Source of the DNA: Ktedonobacteraceae bacterium
Lineage (GTDB): Bacteria > Chloroflexota > Ktedonobacteria > Ktedonobacterales > Ktedonobacteraceae
Assembly: GCA_014896635.1 (NCBI GenBank)
Contig: JADBKA010000018.1
Coordinates: 1-33,658 of the forward strand
Length of the DNA stretch: 33,658 bases
Direction: 5' to 3'
Shown: positions 4,595 to 27,946 of the stretch, one piece after another
Layout of the letters: every line of letters begins with the position of its first letter
Numbering within the stretch: position 1 is the first letter of the stretch
Notes under the pieces: generated by a model
Told to the model about the DNA's origin: nothing
The model's database searches: none
Seen by the model: the letters and a program-made list of their open reading frames with translations, nothing else
Made by a program: the position numbers and the translations under genes

Positions 4595-4656
4595 TAGCCC
4601 ATACCGGTAGAGCCGCCGGCCACATCGCCGATCTGAAGCAGATCAGGTCAGGAACA

Positions 4657-4683
4657 ACCAGTGAAACCAGTGAAACCAGTGAA
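4657..4683. repeat. Three tandem copies of a 9-bp unit between minD and minE
   Basis: ACCAGTGAA is repeated three times without a mismatch (4657-4665, 4666-4674, 4675-4683), 45 bp before the minE start. A short hairpin, GATCTG-AAG-CAGATC (4630-4644), lies just upstream. The array is non-coding. It may alter mRNA spacing between minD and minE, but nothing in the sequence shows a function. Confidence 0.85.
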
Positions 4684-4727
4684 AATAGCAGAAGTTAAGA
4701 CAAATAGCGAAGAGAGAAGGTAGGGTT

Positions 4728-10236: not shown

Positions 10237-11958
10237 CTATCGTTTAAAAATCATCGCCAGCGCCGTCACGCCGGCTATACCCAGGCAGAACCAGCCGGGC
10301 AGCGTCTCATGAATGCTGGAAAGAAAAATGCCTCCGCTCAGCGAAGCGGCAAAAGCAAAAGCCAGTGACAAACTCCCAACCGGCCTGTCGTTCACTGCTT
10401 CAACTGCGTTCCCGTTGCGGCGGCGTCCTCGCCTGCCGAAGCCACGCCTGCGCCTGCCGCCGTCAATTACGGGAGCAACTCGTACTTCCATCTGGCCGGC
10501 GTCAATCTTGTCAATCATACGCTCCAGCGCGCGCGGCAGCGCCAGCAACACTCGCCCGCTATCAAGCACCTGTGATAGAATTTGCTGTACGGTCTGTTCC
10601 ATGTTCCCTTCGTCCAGGCCCAGAAAACGCCGCGCATATGGTGTCGCCACCTCGATAAAATTGAAATCAGGCGCCAGGCCCGTCGTCACTCCTACCAGCG
10701 TACCAATAGCCCGTCCGGTAAAGGCAAACTGCGCCGGCACGCGGAAAGGCTGACCATAGATCAGATCTTCGATCTCGCTTGCCACTTCGGGCATATTCAA
10801 CTGGCGCACTTCGCCGAGCGTCATGCCGTAATACTGTTCCAGCATCAGCCCCAGCGCACGCGCAATCGCCTGGTGGTTCGCTCCCTCACCGAGAAAGCCG
10901 AGCCGCTCCAGCGCGTCTACCATCGCACGAGTATCGCGCGTGACAAAGCTGATAAACATATCGCGCATGGAACGCCTCATACTATTTGTCAGACGCCCCA
11001 CCATACCAAAATCCACGAACGCGATCACCGGCCCGTCAGGAGGAGAGCCGCGCTTCACAAAGATGTTGCCGGGGTGCGGATCGGCGTGAAAGACGCCTTC
11101 ATCGAAAAACTGGTGAAAATAGGCGCTGACCATACGTTTCGCGGCTTCCAGGCGATCAACGCCCGCCGCATCCAGCGCCGCATAGTCGTTAATTTTGATC
11201 CCTTCCACCCATTCCAGTACCAGCACGCGCCGCGCTACATACTCATCGTAAACACGCGGAACAAAAATCGTAGGATCGTCGCTGAACATCTCGCGGAACA
11301 TCGTCACGTTGGCCGCCTCGGTCACATAGTCAATCTCCTCAAAGACTGTACGCCTGAACTCACGGTAGATGCCCATTAAATCAATAAATTCGCCGGTATC
11401 GACGAGATGCGTGATCAGCCAGATCACGAAGTGTAGCGTGCTGAGGTCTGTACGCACCAGCCGCTCAATGTCAGGACGCTGGACCTTCACCGCCACCGTC
11501 TCACCCGTCTTTGCCAGCACACCCTTATGCACCTGGCCGAGCGAGGCGGCAGCCGTACAATTCTGCTCCAGCGAACTGAACACCTCATTGACTGGCCGGC
11601 CCAGTTCGCTCTCGATCACATATACGACGTGCTCAAAAGGTGCTGGCGGCACCTCGTCCTGCAACGAAGCCAGCACCTCCAGTGCGCGTTCCGGCAGGAG
11701 ATCGGCGCGCGAACTGAGAAACTGTCCAAGCTTGATCATCAGCACACCGAGCTTGATCGCCGTCGCGCGAAAAGCAGTCAATACTTTGATCAATACGTCG
11801 ATATCTGGCTTTACTTCATAGTTGCCACGCGCTCGCGCCCGCACAACGCGCTGCCGCTCGCGGTAAATAACCCATAAAGTCCAGAGCAGAAGCCGGGCTA
11901 CTTTGAAAAAGCGCACAATCTGTGATAATCTATTGACCCTGGGAGTCGCTATAGCCAT
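10237..11958 (-). CDS. ABC1/AarF/UbiB family atypical kinase
   Basis: The 573-aa protein belongs to the ABC1K/UbiB protein-kinase-like family, whose members support quinone or isoprenoid lipid metabolism and are membrane-associated. Landmarks in order: KLGQ (76-79) of the KxGQ helix, the Ala-rich loop AAASLGQVH (136-144) replacing the glycine-rich loop, VAVKVQRP (155-162) with K158, the ExD-like FEEIDY (206-211), HADPHPGN (291-298) as catalytic loop, and DFG (316-318). About 30 Arg/Gly-rich residues precede two hydrophobic C-terminal helices. The ATG at 11958 was chosen because GAAGAAGGA lies 8 nt upstream. The frame is open to 12123, but those residues translate the hairpin element at 12037-12165 and are not protein-like. 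Its 5' leader contains that element. Confidence 0.92.
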   Translation of the reverse strand: MAIATPRVNRLSQIVRFFKVARLLLWTLWVIYRERQRVVRARARGNYEVKPDIDVLIKVLTAFRATAIKLGVLMIKLGQFLSSRADLLPERALEVLASLQDEVPPAPFEHVVYVIESELGRPVNEVFSSLEQNCTAAASLGQVHKGVLAKTGETVAVKVQRPDIERLVRTDLSTLHFVIWLITHLVDTGEFIDLMGIYREFRRTVFEEIDYVTEAANVTMFREMFSDDPTIFVPRVYDEYVARRVLVLEWVEGIKINDYAALDAAGVDRLEAAKRMVSAYFHQFFDEGVFHADPHPGNIFVKRGSPPDGPVIAFVDFGMVGRLTNSMRRSMRDMFISFVTRDTRAMVDALERLGFLGEGANHQAIARALGLMLEQYYGMTLGEVRQLNMPEVASEIEDLIYGQPFRVPAQFAFTGRAIGTLVGVTTGLAPDFNFIEVATPYARRFLGLDEGNMEQTVQQILSQVLDSGRVLLALPRALERMIDKIDAGQMEVRVAPVIDGGRRRRGFGRRGRRRNGNAVEAVNDRPVGSLSLAFAFAASLSGGIFLSSIHETLPGWFCLGIAGVTALAMIFKR

Positions 11959-12036
11959 ACAAGAATCCTTCTTCCCTGTAGAAGTGAACCCCATTCGTGT
12001 GAATTTTAAGGGAGCTTTCTTTTTTTCCTCTTCCCT

Positions 12037-12165
12037 CTCATCCCATGTTGCTTCTCTGAAGCAACATGGGATGAAATCTTGATACTCGTTTGAGATCCGT
12101 CCCGCCACCAGCGGGACGGGCAAGATGCTTGCGCATCTTGCCTATCTGAACGCAAGGGAGTATCA
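12037..12165 (-). repeat. Paired-hairpin leader element, copy 1
   Basis: Three perfect stems lie here: CATCCCATGTTGCTTC/GAAGCAACATGGGATG (12039-12054 and 12058-12073), CCGTCCCGC/GCGGGACGG (12097-12105 and 12111-12119), and GGCAAGATGC/GCATCTTGCC (12119-12128 and 12133-12142). The element ends with CGCAAGGGAGTATCA. Its reverse complement aligns with 18776-18884, except for the middle stem, which is extra here. The outer stem differs by paired changes. On the minus strand it lies about 80-200 nt upstream of the ABC1-kinase start, inside its probable leader. Confidence 0.85.
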
Positions 12166-18756: not shown

Positions 18757-18777
18757 GCAGGCAAGCGCCTGCCTTTT
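18757..18777 (+). terminator. Intrinsic terminator after the DUF4012 gene
   Basis: GCAGGC (18757-18762) and GCCTGC (18767-18772) form a 6-bp stem with loop AAGC, followed by CTTTT. A second hairpin lies upstream (CCTGGG 18707-18712, CCCAGG 18724-18729). The paired-hairpin element begins at once after it. Confidence 0.55.
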
Positions 18778-18884
18778 GATACTCCCTTGCGTTCAGATGG
18801 GCAAGATGCGCCAGCATCTTGCCCATCTGAACGGCTATCAAGATTTCATACCAAGTTGCTTCCAGAGAAGCAACTTGGTATGAA
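18776..18884 (+). repeat. Paired-hairpin leader element, copy 2
   Basis: Two long perfect hairpins lie in tandem. The first is GTTCAGATGGGCAAGATGC (18791-18809) with GCATCTTGCCCATCTGAAC (18814-18832), a 19-bp stem with a 4-nt loop. The second is TTCATACCAAGTTGCTTC (18845-18862) with GAAGCAACTTGGTATGAA (18867-18884), an 18-bp stem with a 4-nt loop. The element starts with GATACTCCCTTGCG. It ends 19 bp before the sugar isomerase ATG, so it forms most of that gene's leader. Copy 1 at 12037-12165 has the same order relative to its downstream gene. Confidence 0.9.
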
Positions 18885-18903: not shown

Positions 18904-19656
18904 ATGGCAAACCAGTTAGTAGGGTTACAGTTGTACACGGTGCGCGATCAAACTGCGCAGGACTTCAAGCGAACTTTGCAGTCTGTCGGCGAGATAGGTT
19001 ATGACGGTGTGGAGTTTGCTGGCTACGGCGGTATTTCGTCAAAGGAGATGGCGGCCTGCCTGGCCGACTTTAACCTGCGCGCACTCGGCGCACACGTAGG
19101 ACTGCCTGCCCTCGAAGCAGATATTGAGCGCGAACTTAACTACTGCCTTGATATCGGTTGTACGCATCTCATCATCCCTTCGCTGGAGCGGAAGTGGTGT
19201 AGTGCCGAAGGATTTCGTGCAATAGCGCCGCGCCTCAACGAGGTCGGACGGCGATGTCAGGAACGCGGCATCACGCTCTGCTACCATAACCACGATTTTG
19301 AATTTGCCCGTGAGGATGGGAAGTATTTGCTCGATATCCTGCTGGATGCTACTGATGCAGCACTTGTCAGGCTGGAATTAGATGTATACTGGGCGGCTTA
19401 TGCCGGAGCCGATCCTGTCGCTTATCTACGCAGGCACGCCGAGCGCGTTTCCTTTATCCACGTCAAGGATATGACGGCCAGTCGCACCTTCACCGAAGTG
19501 GGGGATGGTATTCTCGATATTGCCGGCTACTGTGCGGCAGCGGCAGAAAGCGGGACACGATTCCTGATCGTGGAAAATGATCTGCCACAGATTCCCTCGC
19601 TAGAGAGCGCGCGCCGCTCTCATGAGAATTTGCGGCGCATTCTGAAACAGGCTTGA
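18904..19656 (+). CDS. Sugar phosphate isomerase/epimerase (AP endonuclease 2 superfamily TIM barrel)
   Basis: This 250-aa protein belongs to the xylose-isomerase-like TIM-barrel family that isomerises or epimerises sugars with a divalent metal. Landmarks: LQLYTVRD (8-15), GVEFAGYGG (35-43), YHNHDFEF (127-134), LELDVYWAAYAG (157-168), FIHVKDM (184-190), EVGDGILD (198-205) and VEND (223-226), which supply the usual Glu, Asp, His and Glu metal ligands. The substrate is not predictable; no sugar kinase, transporter or dehydrogenase is adjacent. The ATG at 18904 follows AGAGG; an earlier in-frame ATG (18880) lies inside the hairpin element and would add non-homologous residues. Confidence 0.9.
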   Translation: MANQLVGLQLYTVRDQTAQDFKRTLQSVGEIGYDGVEFAGYGGISSKEMAACLADFNLRALGAHVGLPALEADIERELNYCLDIGCTHLIIPSLERKWCSAEGFRAIAPRLNEVGRRCQERGITLCYHNHDFEFAREDGKYLLDILLDATDAALVRLELDVYWAAYAGADPVAYLRRHAERVSFIHVKDMTASRTFTEVGDGILDIAGYCAAAAESGTRFLIVENDLPQIPSLESARRSHENLRRILKQA

Positions 19657-26832: not shown

Positions 26833-27690
26833 ATGCAGAGAAGAGAAGATTTAGCGACGAACAAAGAATTCCTGCGCTCCATTGCAGACAACGACTATGA
26901 AATCCCGGCAGGAATCGACCACTTCACCTTTGCAAAGGCGCTTCTGGAGAACCTTGCTTCGGTCGATAGCGAACTGCGCGACGAGTTGAGCTACATGATC
27001 CTCGCCAGTGGCATCATCGACCGGCAGAAACTGACAATCCCGCAACTGGAGAAGCTGCTGGAGAGCACGCTGGACGAAAACCATCTCTTCTACCGTATTG
27101 GCGAGGCCGGCGCGGATTCGGTCTTCATGCGCAGTTTCTCGAACCTGATCGTCGCAGCGATACTCTACACTGACACCAGAAATCCCCAGCTACCTGAAGA
27201 TGCTGTGCATAAAGTGAAAATCGCCCTGTTCGATTACGCGCGGCGAGAGAAGGACTGGCGGGGGTATGTCAGTGGAAAGGGATGGGGACACGCGATGGCG
27301 CACCTGGCCGACGCGTTGGACCAGCTTGCGCAGCATCCGGCAGCGTCGCAGGCGGAACGCGAAGAGGTCATGATGCTAGTGAGTGAACTGGCGAAGATGC
27401 CCGTTCCACTGTATAACGAAGAGGATGTGCGCCTGGCGACCATCGCCTACCATATCATTCTGGGGAAGCAGGTGGCCGAGGAGTTCCTGGAAAGCTGGCT
27501 GCAAGCGTGTTTTGTGGCGCGAGACGCCGACGTGGCATCCTGGACGAGCGCGACCAATAGCAAGAATTTTTTGCGTAGCCTGTACTTTCTGCTGCTGTGG
27601 GATAACATGGCGCTCGTGCTGGTCGAGAAAATCAGTGATCTGCTCAGGCGGCAGGACGCGGTTTACCTGGAGAAGGGTGGGGAGCAGTAA
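26833..27690 (+). CDS. DUF2785 domain protein
   Basis: This 285-aa, mostly helical protein matches the DUF2785 pattern: an N-terminal acidic helix region (FLRSIADNDYEIP), then DELSYMILASGII. The most conserved block is DWRGYVSGKGWGHAMAHLAD (140-159), with Trp, His and Asp residues that suggest a ligand or metal pocket. VRLATIAYHIIL and RSLYFLLLWDN close the fold. No biochemical function is known for the family, which occurs mainly in Firmicutes and Chloroflexota. AAAGAGGC precedes the ATG. A 9-bp tandem array starts immediately after the stop codon. Confidence 0.85.
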   Translation: MQRREDLATNKEFLRSIADNDYEIPAGIDHFTFAKALLENLASVDSELRDELSYMILASGIIDRQKLTIPQLEKLLESTLDENHLFYRIGEAGADSVFMRSFSNLIVAAILYTDTRNPQLPEDAVHKVKIALFDYARREKDWRGYVSGKGWGHAMAHLADALDQLAQHPAASQAEREEVMMLVSELAKMPVPLYNEEDVRLATIAYHIILGKQVAEEFLESWLQACFVARDADVASWTSATNSKNFLRSLYFLLLWDNMALVLVEKISDLLRRQDAVYLEKGGEQ

Positions 27691-27726
27691 GGTCGGTGAG
27701 GTCGGTGAGGTCGGTGAGGTCGGTGG
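27691..27726. repeat. Four tandem copies of a 9-bp unit after the DUF2785 stop
   Basis: GGTCGGTGA is present three times exactly (27691-27717) and a fourth time with one change (GGTCGGTGG, 27718-27726). The array begins at the first base after the TAA stop and ends 19 bp before the tRNA promoter. Confidence 0.9.
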
Positions 27727-27774: not shown

Positions 27775-27789
27775 CACTTACGTCAGCAA

Positions 27790-27861
27790 GCCGGTGTAGC
27801 TCAGTGGCAGAGCAGCGGTTTTGTAAACCGCTGGCCGTCGGTTCGAATCCGACCACCGGCT
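27790..27861 (+). tRNA. tRNA-Thr (anticodon UGU)
   Basis: All four arms fold. The acceptor is GCCGGTG (27790-27796) with CACCGGC (27854-27860). The D-arm is GCTC/GAGC. The anticodon stem GCGGT/ACCGC carries loop TTTGTAA, whose positions 34-36 are TGT. A 5-nt variable loop TGGCC follows, and the T-arm is GTCGG-TTCGAAT-CCGAC. The gene is 72 nt including the discriminator T; CCA is not encoded. A run of seven T starts at the discriminator position and would terminate transcription directly after the gene, giving a monocistronic tRNA. Confidence 0.96.
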
Positions 27862-27946
27862 TTTTTTATTAGAGTTCATAATTTCTTGTCTAATTCGCTA
27901 CTACTTCCCTATTTTATATCAAATCTTTTTAAAGAGTGATTGATGT

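Follow-up and report, generated by a model that had tools for sequence, protein, structure and literature searches.

The window, the whole stretch of 33,658 nucleotides analysed, contains two diverged copies of one folded element, at 12037-12165 (-) and 18777-18884 (+). Copy 1 precedes a gene for an ABC1 kinase-like protein, and copy 2 precedes a gene for a xylose-isomerase-like TIM barrel protein. An earlier note on this DNA had called these genes ABC1 kinase and sugar isomerase, and both names agree with the Pfam matches (ABC1 and AP_endonuc_2). It had also placed each copy in the leader of its gene and in the sense of that gene, which is correct. The gap from copy 2 to its start codon (ATG 18904) is 19 nt, as it had given. 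The gap from copy 1 to ATG 11958 is 78 nt, not 80. The features are listed below, with P1 for the closing stem and P2 and P3 for the two arms.

10237-11958 (-): gene downstream of copy 1, ABC1 kinase-like protein (Pfam PF03109, ABC1, E 9.8e-78)
12036-12076 (-): copy 1 hairpin 2, 19 bp with a loop of 3
12079-12165 (-): Y-shaped part of copy 1, left end TGATACTCCCTTGC, right end GAGTATCAA, folding into a three-way form in which P1 is weakened
12098-12118 (-): additional, P3-like arm of copy 1, CGTCCCGC-TGGTG-GCGGGACG, missing in copy 2
12119-12142 (-): copy 1 hairpin 1, P2-like arm, GGCAAGATGC-GCAA-GCATCTTGCC
18777-18842 (+): copy 2, reduced single-hairpin element, left end TGATACTCCCTTGC, right end GGCTATCAAG
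18790-18833 (+): copy 2 hairpin 1, 20 bp with the loop GCCA
18845-18884 (+): copy 2 hairpin 2, 18 bp with a loop of 4
18904-19656 (+): gene downstream of copy 2, xylose-isomerase-like TIM barrel protein (Pfam PF01261, AP_endonuc_2, E 2.4e-18)

The reverse complement of 12037-12165 pairs with copy 2 over its full length, as first reported, with a mean column identity of 87% in the alignment. The start of copy 2 moves from 18776 to 18777. Inverted pair I1 spans 51 nt with 94% complementarity and I2 spans 33 nt with 88%; judged from the best 25 of the window's 52 inverted pairs, they are the longest two. Each copy contains two hairpins. Hairpin 1 is common to both and reads GGCAAGATGC-(GCAA or GCCA)-GCATCTTGCC. 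Hairpin 2, first described with 16-18 bp, has a stem of 18-19 bp at most. It contains the two compensated differences that had drawn attention to it, one C-G to A-T and one T-A to A-T. There are no uncompensated changes inside this stem, one T-G/T-A change at its foot and a difference of one base in the loop. The extra stem reported for copy 1 is a 22-nt insertion in hairpin 1 that pairs as 8-9 bp. This insertion makes an additional arm, so copy 1 can fold as a Y while copy 2 is a single hairpin. Folding with RNA parameters gave z scores of -10.9 and -13.8 for the two copies against dinucleotide shuffles, and DNA parameters gave -9.6 and -13.7. In both cases 0 of 200 shuffles were equally stable.

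The window contains other repeats. A terminator-like hairpin (GCAGGC-AAGC-GCCTGC, then CTTTT) is located at 18757-18772, between the end of a DUF4012 gene (18702) and copy 2, and may mark a transcription end ahead of that copy. The 9-mer AGGTCGGTG occurs four times in perfect tandem at 27690-27725, some 60 bases ahead of a gene for tRNA-Thr(TGT) (27789-27862). Another 9-mer, AACCAGTGA, is present in 3.2 perfect tandem copies at 4656-4684.

Relatives of the element were sought by pattern, by blastn and by covariance model. Exact patterns of 19 and 21 bases had no match in viral contigs or genome contigs. Starting from a relative of the ABC1 protein, the search reached a Ktedonobacteraceae MAG and, through it, a set of 47 genomes of the class Ktedonobacteria. 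Copy 2 had no blastn match in these 47 genomes (E<=0.01) or in plasmids (E<=1). A covariance model built from the two window copies alone (R1) gave three weak matches in relatives. One of these, in genome G036, had an E value of 0.38. On its 5' side 23 of 25 bases agree with copy 1, and it also closes into a three-way fold. R1 matches L047 (without a Y fold) and L046 (a separate long palindrome) were dropped, and L048 was kept. A pattern made from copy 1 and the G036 match retrieved one further Y (G027) and one chance match from 400 Chloroflexota genomes, and its backward control retrieved none. At up to three mismatches a few chance matches are expected of this pattern, and match L051 is accepted on its fold. 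The chance match (L050), with two mismatches, was dropped as it falls inside an ORF. The ORF downstream of the G027 Y presumably encodes an FtsH-like protein, and another ORF among the relatives is one that we take to be isocitrate dehydrogenase.

A second model (R2) was built from three sequences, namely copy 1, the G036 match and the G027 Y. It matched at least 13 of 30 genomes at E<=1, with at most 150 candidates scored per genome. The matches share the plan P1-TGA-P2-TA-P3-GTT-P1'. The core pattern of the commonest subfamily was found 77 times (68 distinct) in 6 of 12 genomes, and its controls gave none. A third model (R3) was built from 65 matches with the window sequence excluded. At E<=0.001 it matched at least 12 of the 301 Chloroflexota genomes, a lower bound since 17 candidates were scored per genome and the known carriers G032 to G035 are not among the matches listed. 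Those 12 genomes all come from the Ktedonobacteria set. A strict scan for the junction plan, without a model and requiring at least six perfect P1 pairs, retrieved 96 elements with 42 distinct P1 arms from 964 kb, which is the length of loci fetched for holding matches and gives no genome density. The same scan retrieved no elements from the reversed sequence. A very long near-perfect palindrome on CTTCGCTGCGCTCAGAATGGCAGGATGC is located at about 1495-1569 of locus L059 (G021). This is a different repeat, possibly from a separate family. In open-licence PMC papers we found no description of these Ktedonobacterial Y elements.

Copy 2 resembles the family directly. It has CCTTGC...CAGATG...GCGCCAGCA...TCTGA.CGG...CTATCAAG in common with elements from G020, which covers the left end, P1, the loop and the right end. 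Its score against the 96 elements was 36, a value reached by 0 of 200 dinucleotide-type shuffles and 0 of 200 structure-preserving shuffles. It was also the top window match of R3 (E 3.9e-4). Y elements have a CCTTGC-like left end, a complementary P1 and a right end like YATCAA/TTTCAA- or ATAAG, and copy 2 has all three. Copy 1 has the same ends as copy 2, with P1 weakened. Taken alone against the 96 elements, its score was reached by 16 and 7 of 200 shuffles of the two kinds, and its R3 match was not significant (E 1.6). R2 matched copy 1 at 12085-12158, and copy 1 is itself part of R2. What ties copy 1 to the family is that it matches copy 2 over its full length, together with the G036 match. 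The common junction letters TGA, TA and GTT are not found in the window copies, which read CAGATA/GGG and have no TA or GTT. For this reason we count them as members that are divergent or reduced. Some of these letters are also missing from the intermediates in G036 and G027. No relative of hairpin 2 was recognised among the elements found. By analogy with tandem arrays in G032 such as L071, our guess is that hairpin 2 is the reduced second unit of a tandem pair, so that the copied unit would include it. That Ktedonobacteria have a family of miniature mobile DNA with a conserved structure is well supported. The evidence that it includes copy 2 is good, and for copy 1 it is indirect.

The fold of these elements is kept while the letters change. 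An alignment of 65 matches was fitted to the R2 structure; a few of the matches are palindromic copies read from the reverse strand. In this alignment 89.2% of the cells pair, and both sides change in 24 of the 25 pairs. Double changes occupy 216 cells, where shuffles gave 61.9 and slid controls no more than 51. In the commonest subfamily, 34 of the 68 distinct elements have a further six perfect P1 pairs, and 2,000 shuffles gave a mean of 17.4 and a maximum of 27. At two sites (L080 and L138), close genomes have similar ends but extended, different or missing arms. Arms can be exchanged whole, which is the same sort of difference as that between copy 1 and copy 2. The earlier note had read its two compensated changes as the mark of a folded form, and this is borne out, as the stems of the relatives vary with pairing. 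It had added that a passive repeat would remain if other copies lay in random orientation or at gene ends and their stems varied without pairing. The orientation is random, but the pairing is kept, so this is not the passive repeat that it described.

The loops point to DNA. Of 88 elements, all with P1 pairing as a prerequisite of the count, 76 have a GNA or GNNA loop in P2 and 76 have one in P3; the remaining 12 per arm have other loops. P2 contains GNA triloops in 51 of 88, with all four bases found in the middle, and tetraloops of the types GNRA (13) and GNYA (12). P3 contains 43 GNRA, 31 GNYA and 2 GNA loops. Counted by distinct arm sequence, P2 has 6 GNYA and 5 GNRA loops, and P3 has 16 GNYA and 15 GNRA. 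The loop-closing pair is C-G in all but three. Other hairpins of the same loci served as a control, and GNA made up 23 of their 167 triloops and GNNA 6 of their 124 tetraloops. Eight P2 arms consist of GCGAAGC or GCGTAGC, with two base pairs only. The hairpin-1 loops of the window, GCAA and GCCA, are both GNNA but not both GNRA. In RNA, GNRA is favoured over GNYA. The GNA/GNNA bias, with GNYA as common as GNRA, makes folded single-stranded DNA a likelier selected form than RNA, as inferred from loops of related copies of shared descent. PMC4686876 describes unusually stable DNA mini-hairpins in which a G-C stem carries a GNA or GNNA loop, whatever base N is, and GCGAAGC melts at 78 C. The proportion of GNYA to GNRA, together with GNA triloops, is proposed as a simple check to separate DNA folds from RNA folds in genome scans.

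The elements are dispersed, multi-copy and extragenic. Among the 96, located relative to mechanically called ORFs and with P1 pairing again required, 27 are sense and 28 antisense between co-directional genes, 18 are between divergent genes and 12 between convergent genes. Six are inside an ORF call and five are unplaced for want of a neighbour. Five further elements near locus ends were left out of this count, and only copies whose 30-base flanks were identical were removed as duplicates, which means that an orthologous pair may be in the count twice. The core pattern gave 74 gene contexts, drawn from its 77 matches. A smaller set had suggested an avoidance of convergent gene pairs (19 divergent and 3 convergent), but this vanished in the wider set.

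The elements also come and go between genomes. Twelve were compared across three close genomes by their 110-base flanks, which were mostly 94-99% identical. Seven (L143, L100, L107, L096, L095, L092 and L109) are absent from both other genomes, where the flanks meet within a few bases. All three genomes have L112, and all three also have L072 and L080, though in changed form. One (L057) is present in one other genome, and the L138 site contains other variants. The duplication read from the empty sites is TA, TAA(G), a 7-nt repeat or none at all, and the ends are not uniform. The L109 site is compatible with a duplication of TAA or TAAG. G027 contains six 74-nt units that are identical base for base and have unrelated flanks. 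The longest BLAST alignment among twelve such loci, each with about 3 kb per side, was at most 84 bases. Of 13 G027 units, retrieved with a pattern that required TA, 11 have TTA at both ends, one has ATA at both ends and one has ATA and TTA. One element in G020 is nested between the arms of another, as judged against L067, and G032 contains tandem copies with 70- and 72-nt spacing. At L246 (G033:C6:893400-896800), G033 has a long single-hairpin variant where G034 has a Y element. The variant is followed by about 2.7 kb with ORFs that we take to be pieces of TnpB.

The fold is kept by paired changes, the elements are present or absent at orthologous sites, they occur as identical, tandem and nested copies, and they are mostly intergenic in random orientation. 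A hairpin mobile element with a preferred target had been one suggestion. Its mobile part is supported by the empty orthologous sites and by identical copies in unrelated flanks, and no preference for leaders was found. The two window copies are most likely mobile folded DNA pieces rather than gene switches, judging by movement in the sequences of their relatives. We think it probable that both are members of one family of small mobile DNA elements, non-coding and non-autonomous, with units of about 60-75 nt and with recognition by the fold. One strand would fold into a three-way junction closed by P1, with P2 and P3 as arms with GNA/GNNA caps and with TGA, TA and GTT unpaired. Loss of an arm would leave a single hairpin, as in copy 2. 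The form recognised in movement would be folded single-stranded DNA, read by its junction bases, loops and ends and not by its stem letters. The mobilising enzyme would be supplied in trans. Stem letters could then drift freely while pairing holds, perhaps aided by arm-copying in replication, and this would give the compensated changes noted earlier. In a bolder version, plausible but less likely than not, these would be a class of mobile DNA recognised by shape. The identity of an element would lie in eight unpaired junction bases, the GNA/GNNA caps and short ends, with the stem letters free while they pair and an enzyme other than a Y1 (HUH) transposase at work.

A conventional MITE is a considerably less likely account. 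Here the element would have terminal inverted repeats, a DDE transposase with TA or TTA/TAA duplications would move it in double-stranded form, and the fold would be a by-product of the repeats. The TTA borders in G027 and the TAA or TAAG at the L109 site are a hint of such an enzyme, and the absence of Y1 domains from G032 and G034 also fits. But the would-be inverted repeats are nearly free in their letters (42 distinct P1 arms among 96), which speaks against reading by sequence, while the unpaired junction letters and loops recur. The duplications at other empty sites are imprecise or absent.

Movement by a Y1 tyrosine transposase (RAYT, TnpA-REP), as for REP/REPIN-type elements, is improbable. 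The elements share the size class, folded palindromes, compensatory changes and tandem or clustered copies that PMC3116915 gives for REPINs. The Y1 domain (PF01797) has 20 matches in G033 and 42 in G035 but none in G032 and G034, two of the four genomes richest in element matches. None of 30 Y1 loci, from 91 matches, contains an R3 element match at E<=0.5. The GTAG/GTGG tag was found within 14 nt of the P1 left end in only 4 of 96 elements. These three results make a RAYT unlikely. Separately, the three close genomes G033, G034 and G035, with 20, 0 and 42 Y1 domain matches, are in sharp contrast in their IS200/IS605-type load.

Template switching, in which one arm is copied from the other and passive palindromes arise with no selected fold or mobility function, is very improbable. 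It fits the arms replaced or extended between close genomes at L080 and L138, as well as the existence of tandem copies. It leaves the identical copies at unrelated places, the recurring junction letters and the loop bias unexplained.

The earlier note had also offered a regulatory RNA leader, a reading that fails on the orientation check which the note had itself proposed. Both window copies are sense in leaders, their RNA fold is strong, and some relatives have AAGGAGG as their right end immediately ahead of a start codon. A Shine-Dalgarno switch (CCTC opposite AAGGAGG) was considered and dropped because element orientation is random. Across 31 loci with the best ABC1 or isomerase homologues, some cut by contig ends, R2 gave one truncated match (E 0.19) at a locus end. 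Rfam matched only tRNA at gathering score in the window. Among the 15 Rfam matches listed at E<=1 for the loci of 19 relatives, none reaches its gathering score. The sense placement of both window copies is weak evidence for leader function, since orientation is random and the homologous loci are nearly empty; the leader positions would be chance among intergenic landing sites. An ordinary regulatory leader is unlikely for the window copies, and a cis-regulatory RNA leader (riboswitch, thermometer or attenuator) is highly unlikely given the near-equal sense and antisense counts, the empty orthologous sites and the GNA and GNYA loops.

As folded mobile DNA, the Y elements can be set beside known systems. 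REPINs, as described in PMC3116915, are likewise short, non-coding, extragenic and dispersed, fold as a single strand, and have compensatory stem changes, tandem arrays and apparent excision. Y elements differ from them in their three-way junction with TGA/TA/GTT letters, their nearly free P1 letters, the rarity of the GTAG tag and the lack of a Y1 gene in two rich genomes. GTAG- and CGTC-tagged REPs, as PMC3733652 describes them, are also dispersed intergenic palindromes that differ between strains. The same paper reports GTAG REPs from Chloroflexi and CGTC REPs without a known dedicated transposase. It describes REPs as 20-40-bp single stem-loops, mostly between unidirectional and convergent genes. 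Y elements, in contrast, are 60-75 nt, branched and without such a gene-pair bias. By these defining features they are not a known REP.

MITEs moved by DDE enzymes are likewise short and non-coding, with complementary ends, and the G027 elements have similar TA/TTA borders. The ends of a MITE are what its enzyme reads, and their sequence is conserved for that reason, whereas in Y elements the stem letters vary and the unpaired letters are kept. In integron attC sites the recognised form is folded single-stranded DNA, and the stem letters vary freely. An attC site consists of a single imperfect hairpin joined to a gene cassette, whereas the branched Y element is itself the mobile unit. Covariation within the DNA between genes is commonly taken as a sign of structured RNA, yet the Y elements covary strongly and behave as mobile DNA with DNA-type loops. 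If the fold is what the enzyme reads, they would add a naturally occurring, branched substrate of single-stranded DNA to REPs, the ends of IS200/IS605 and attC sites.
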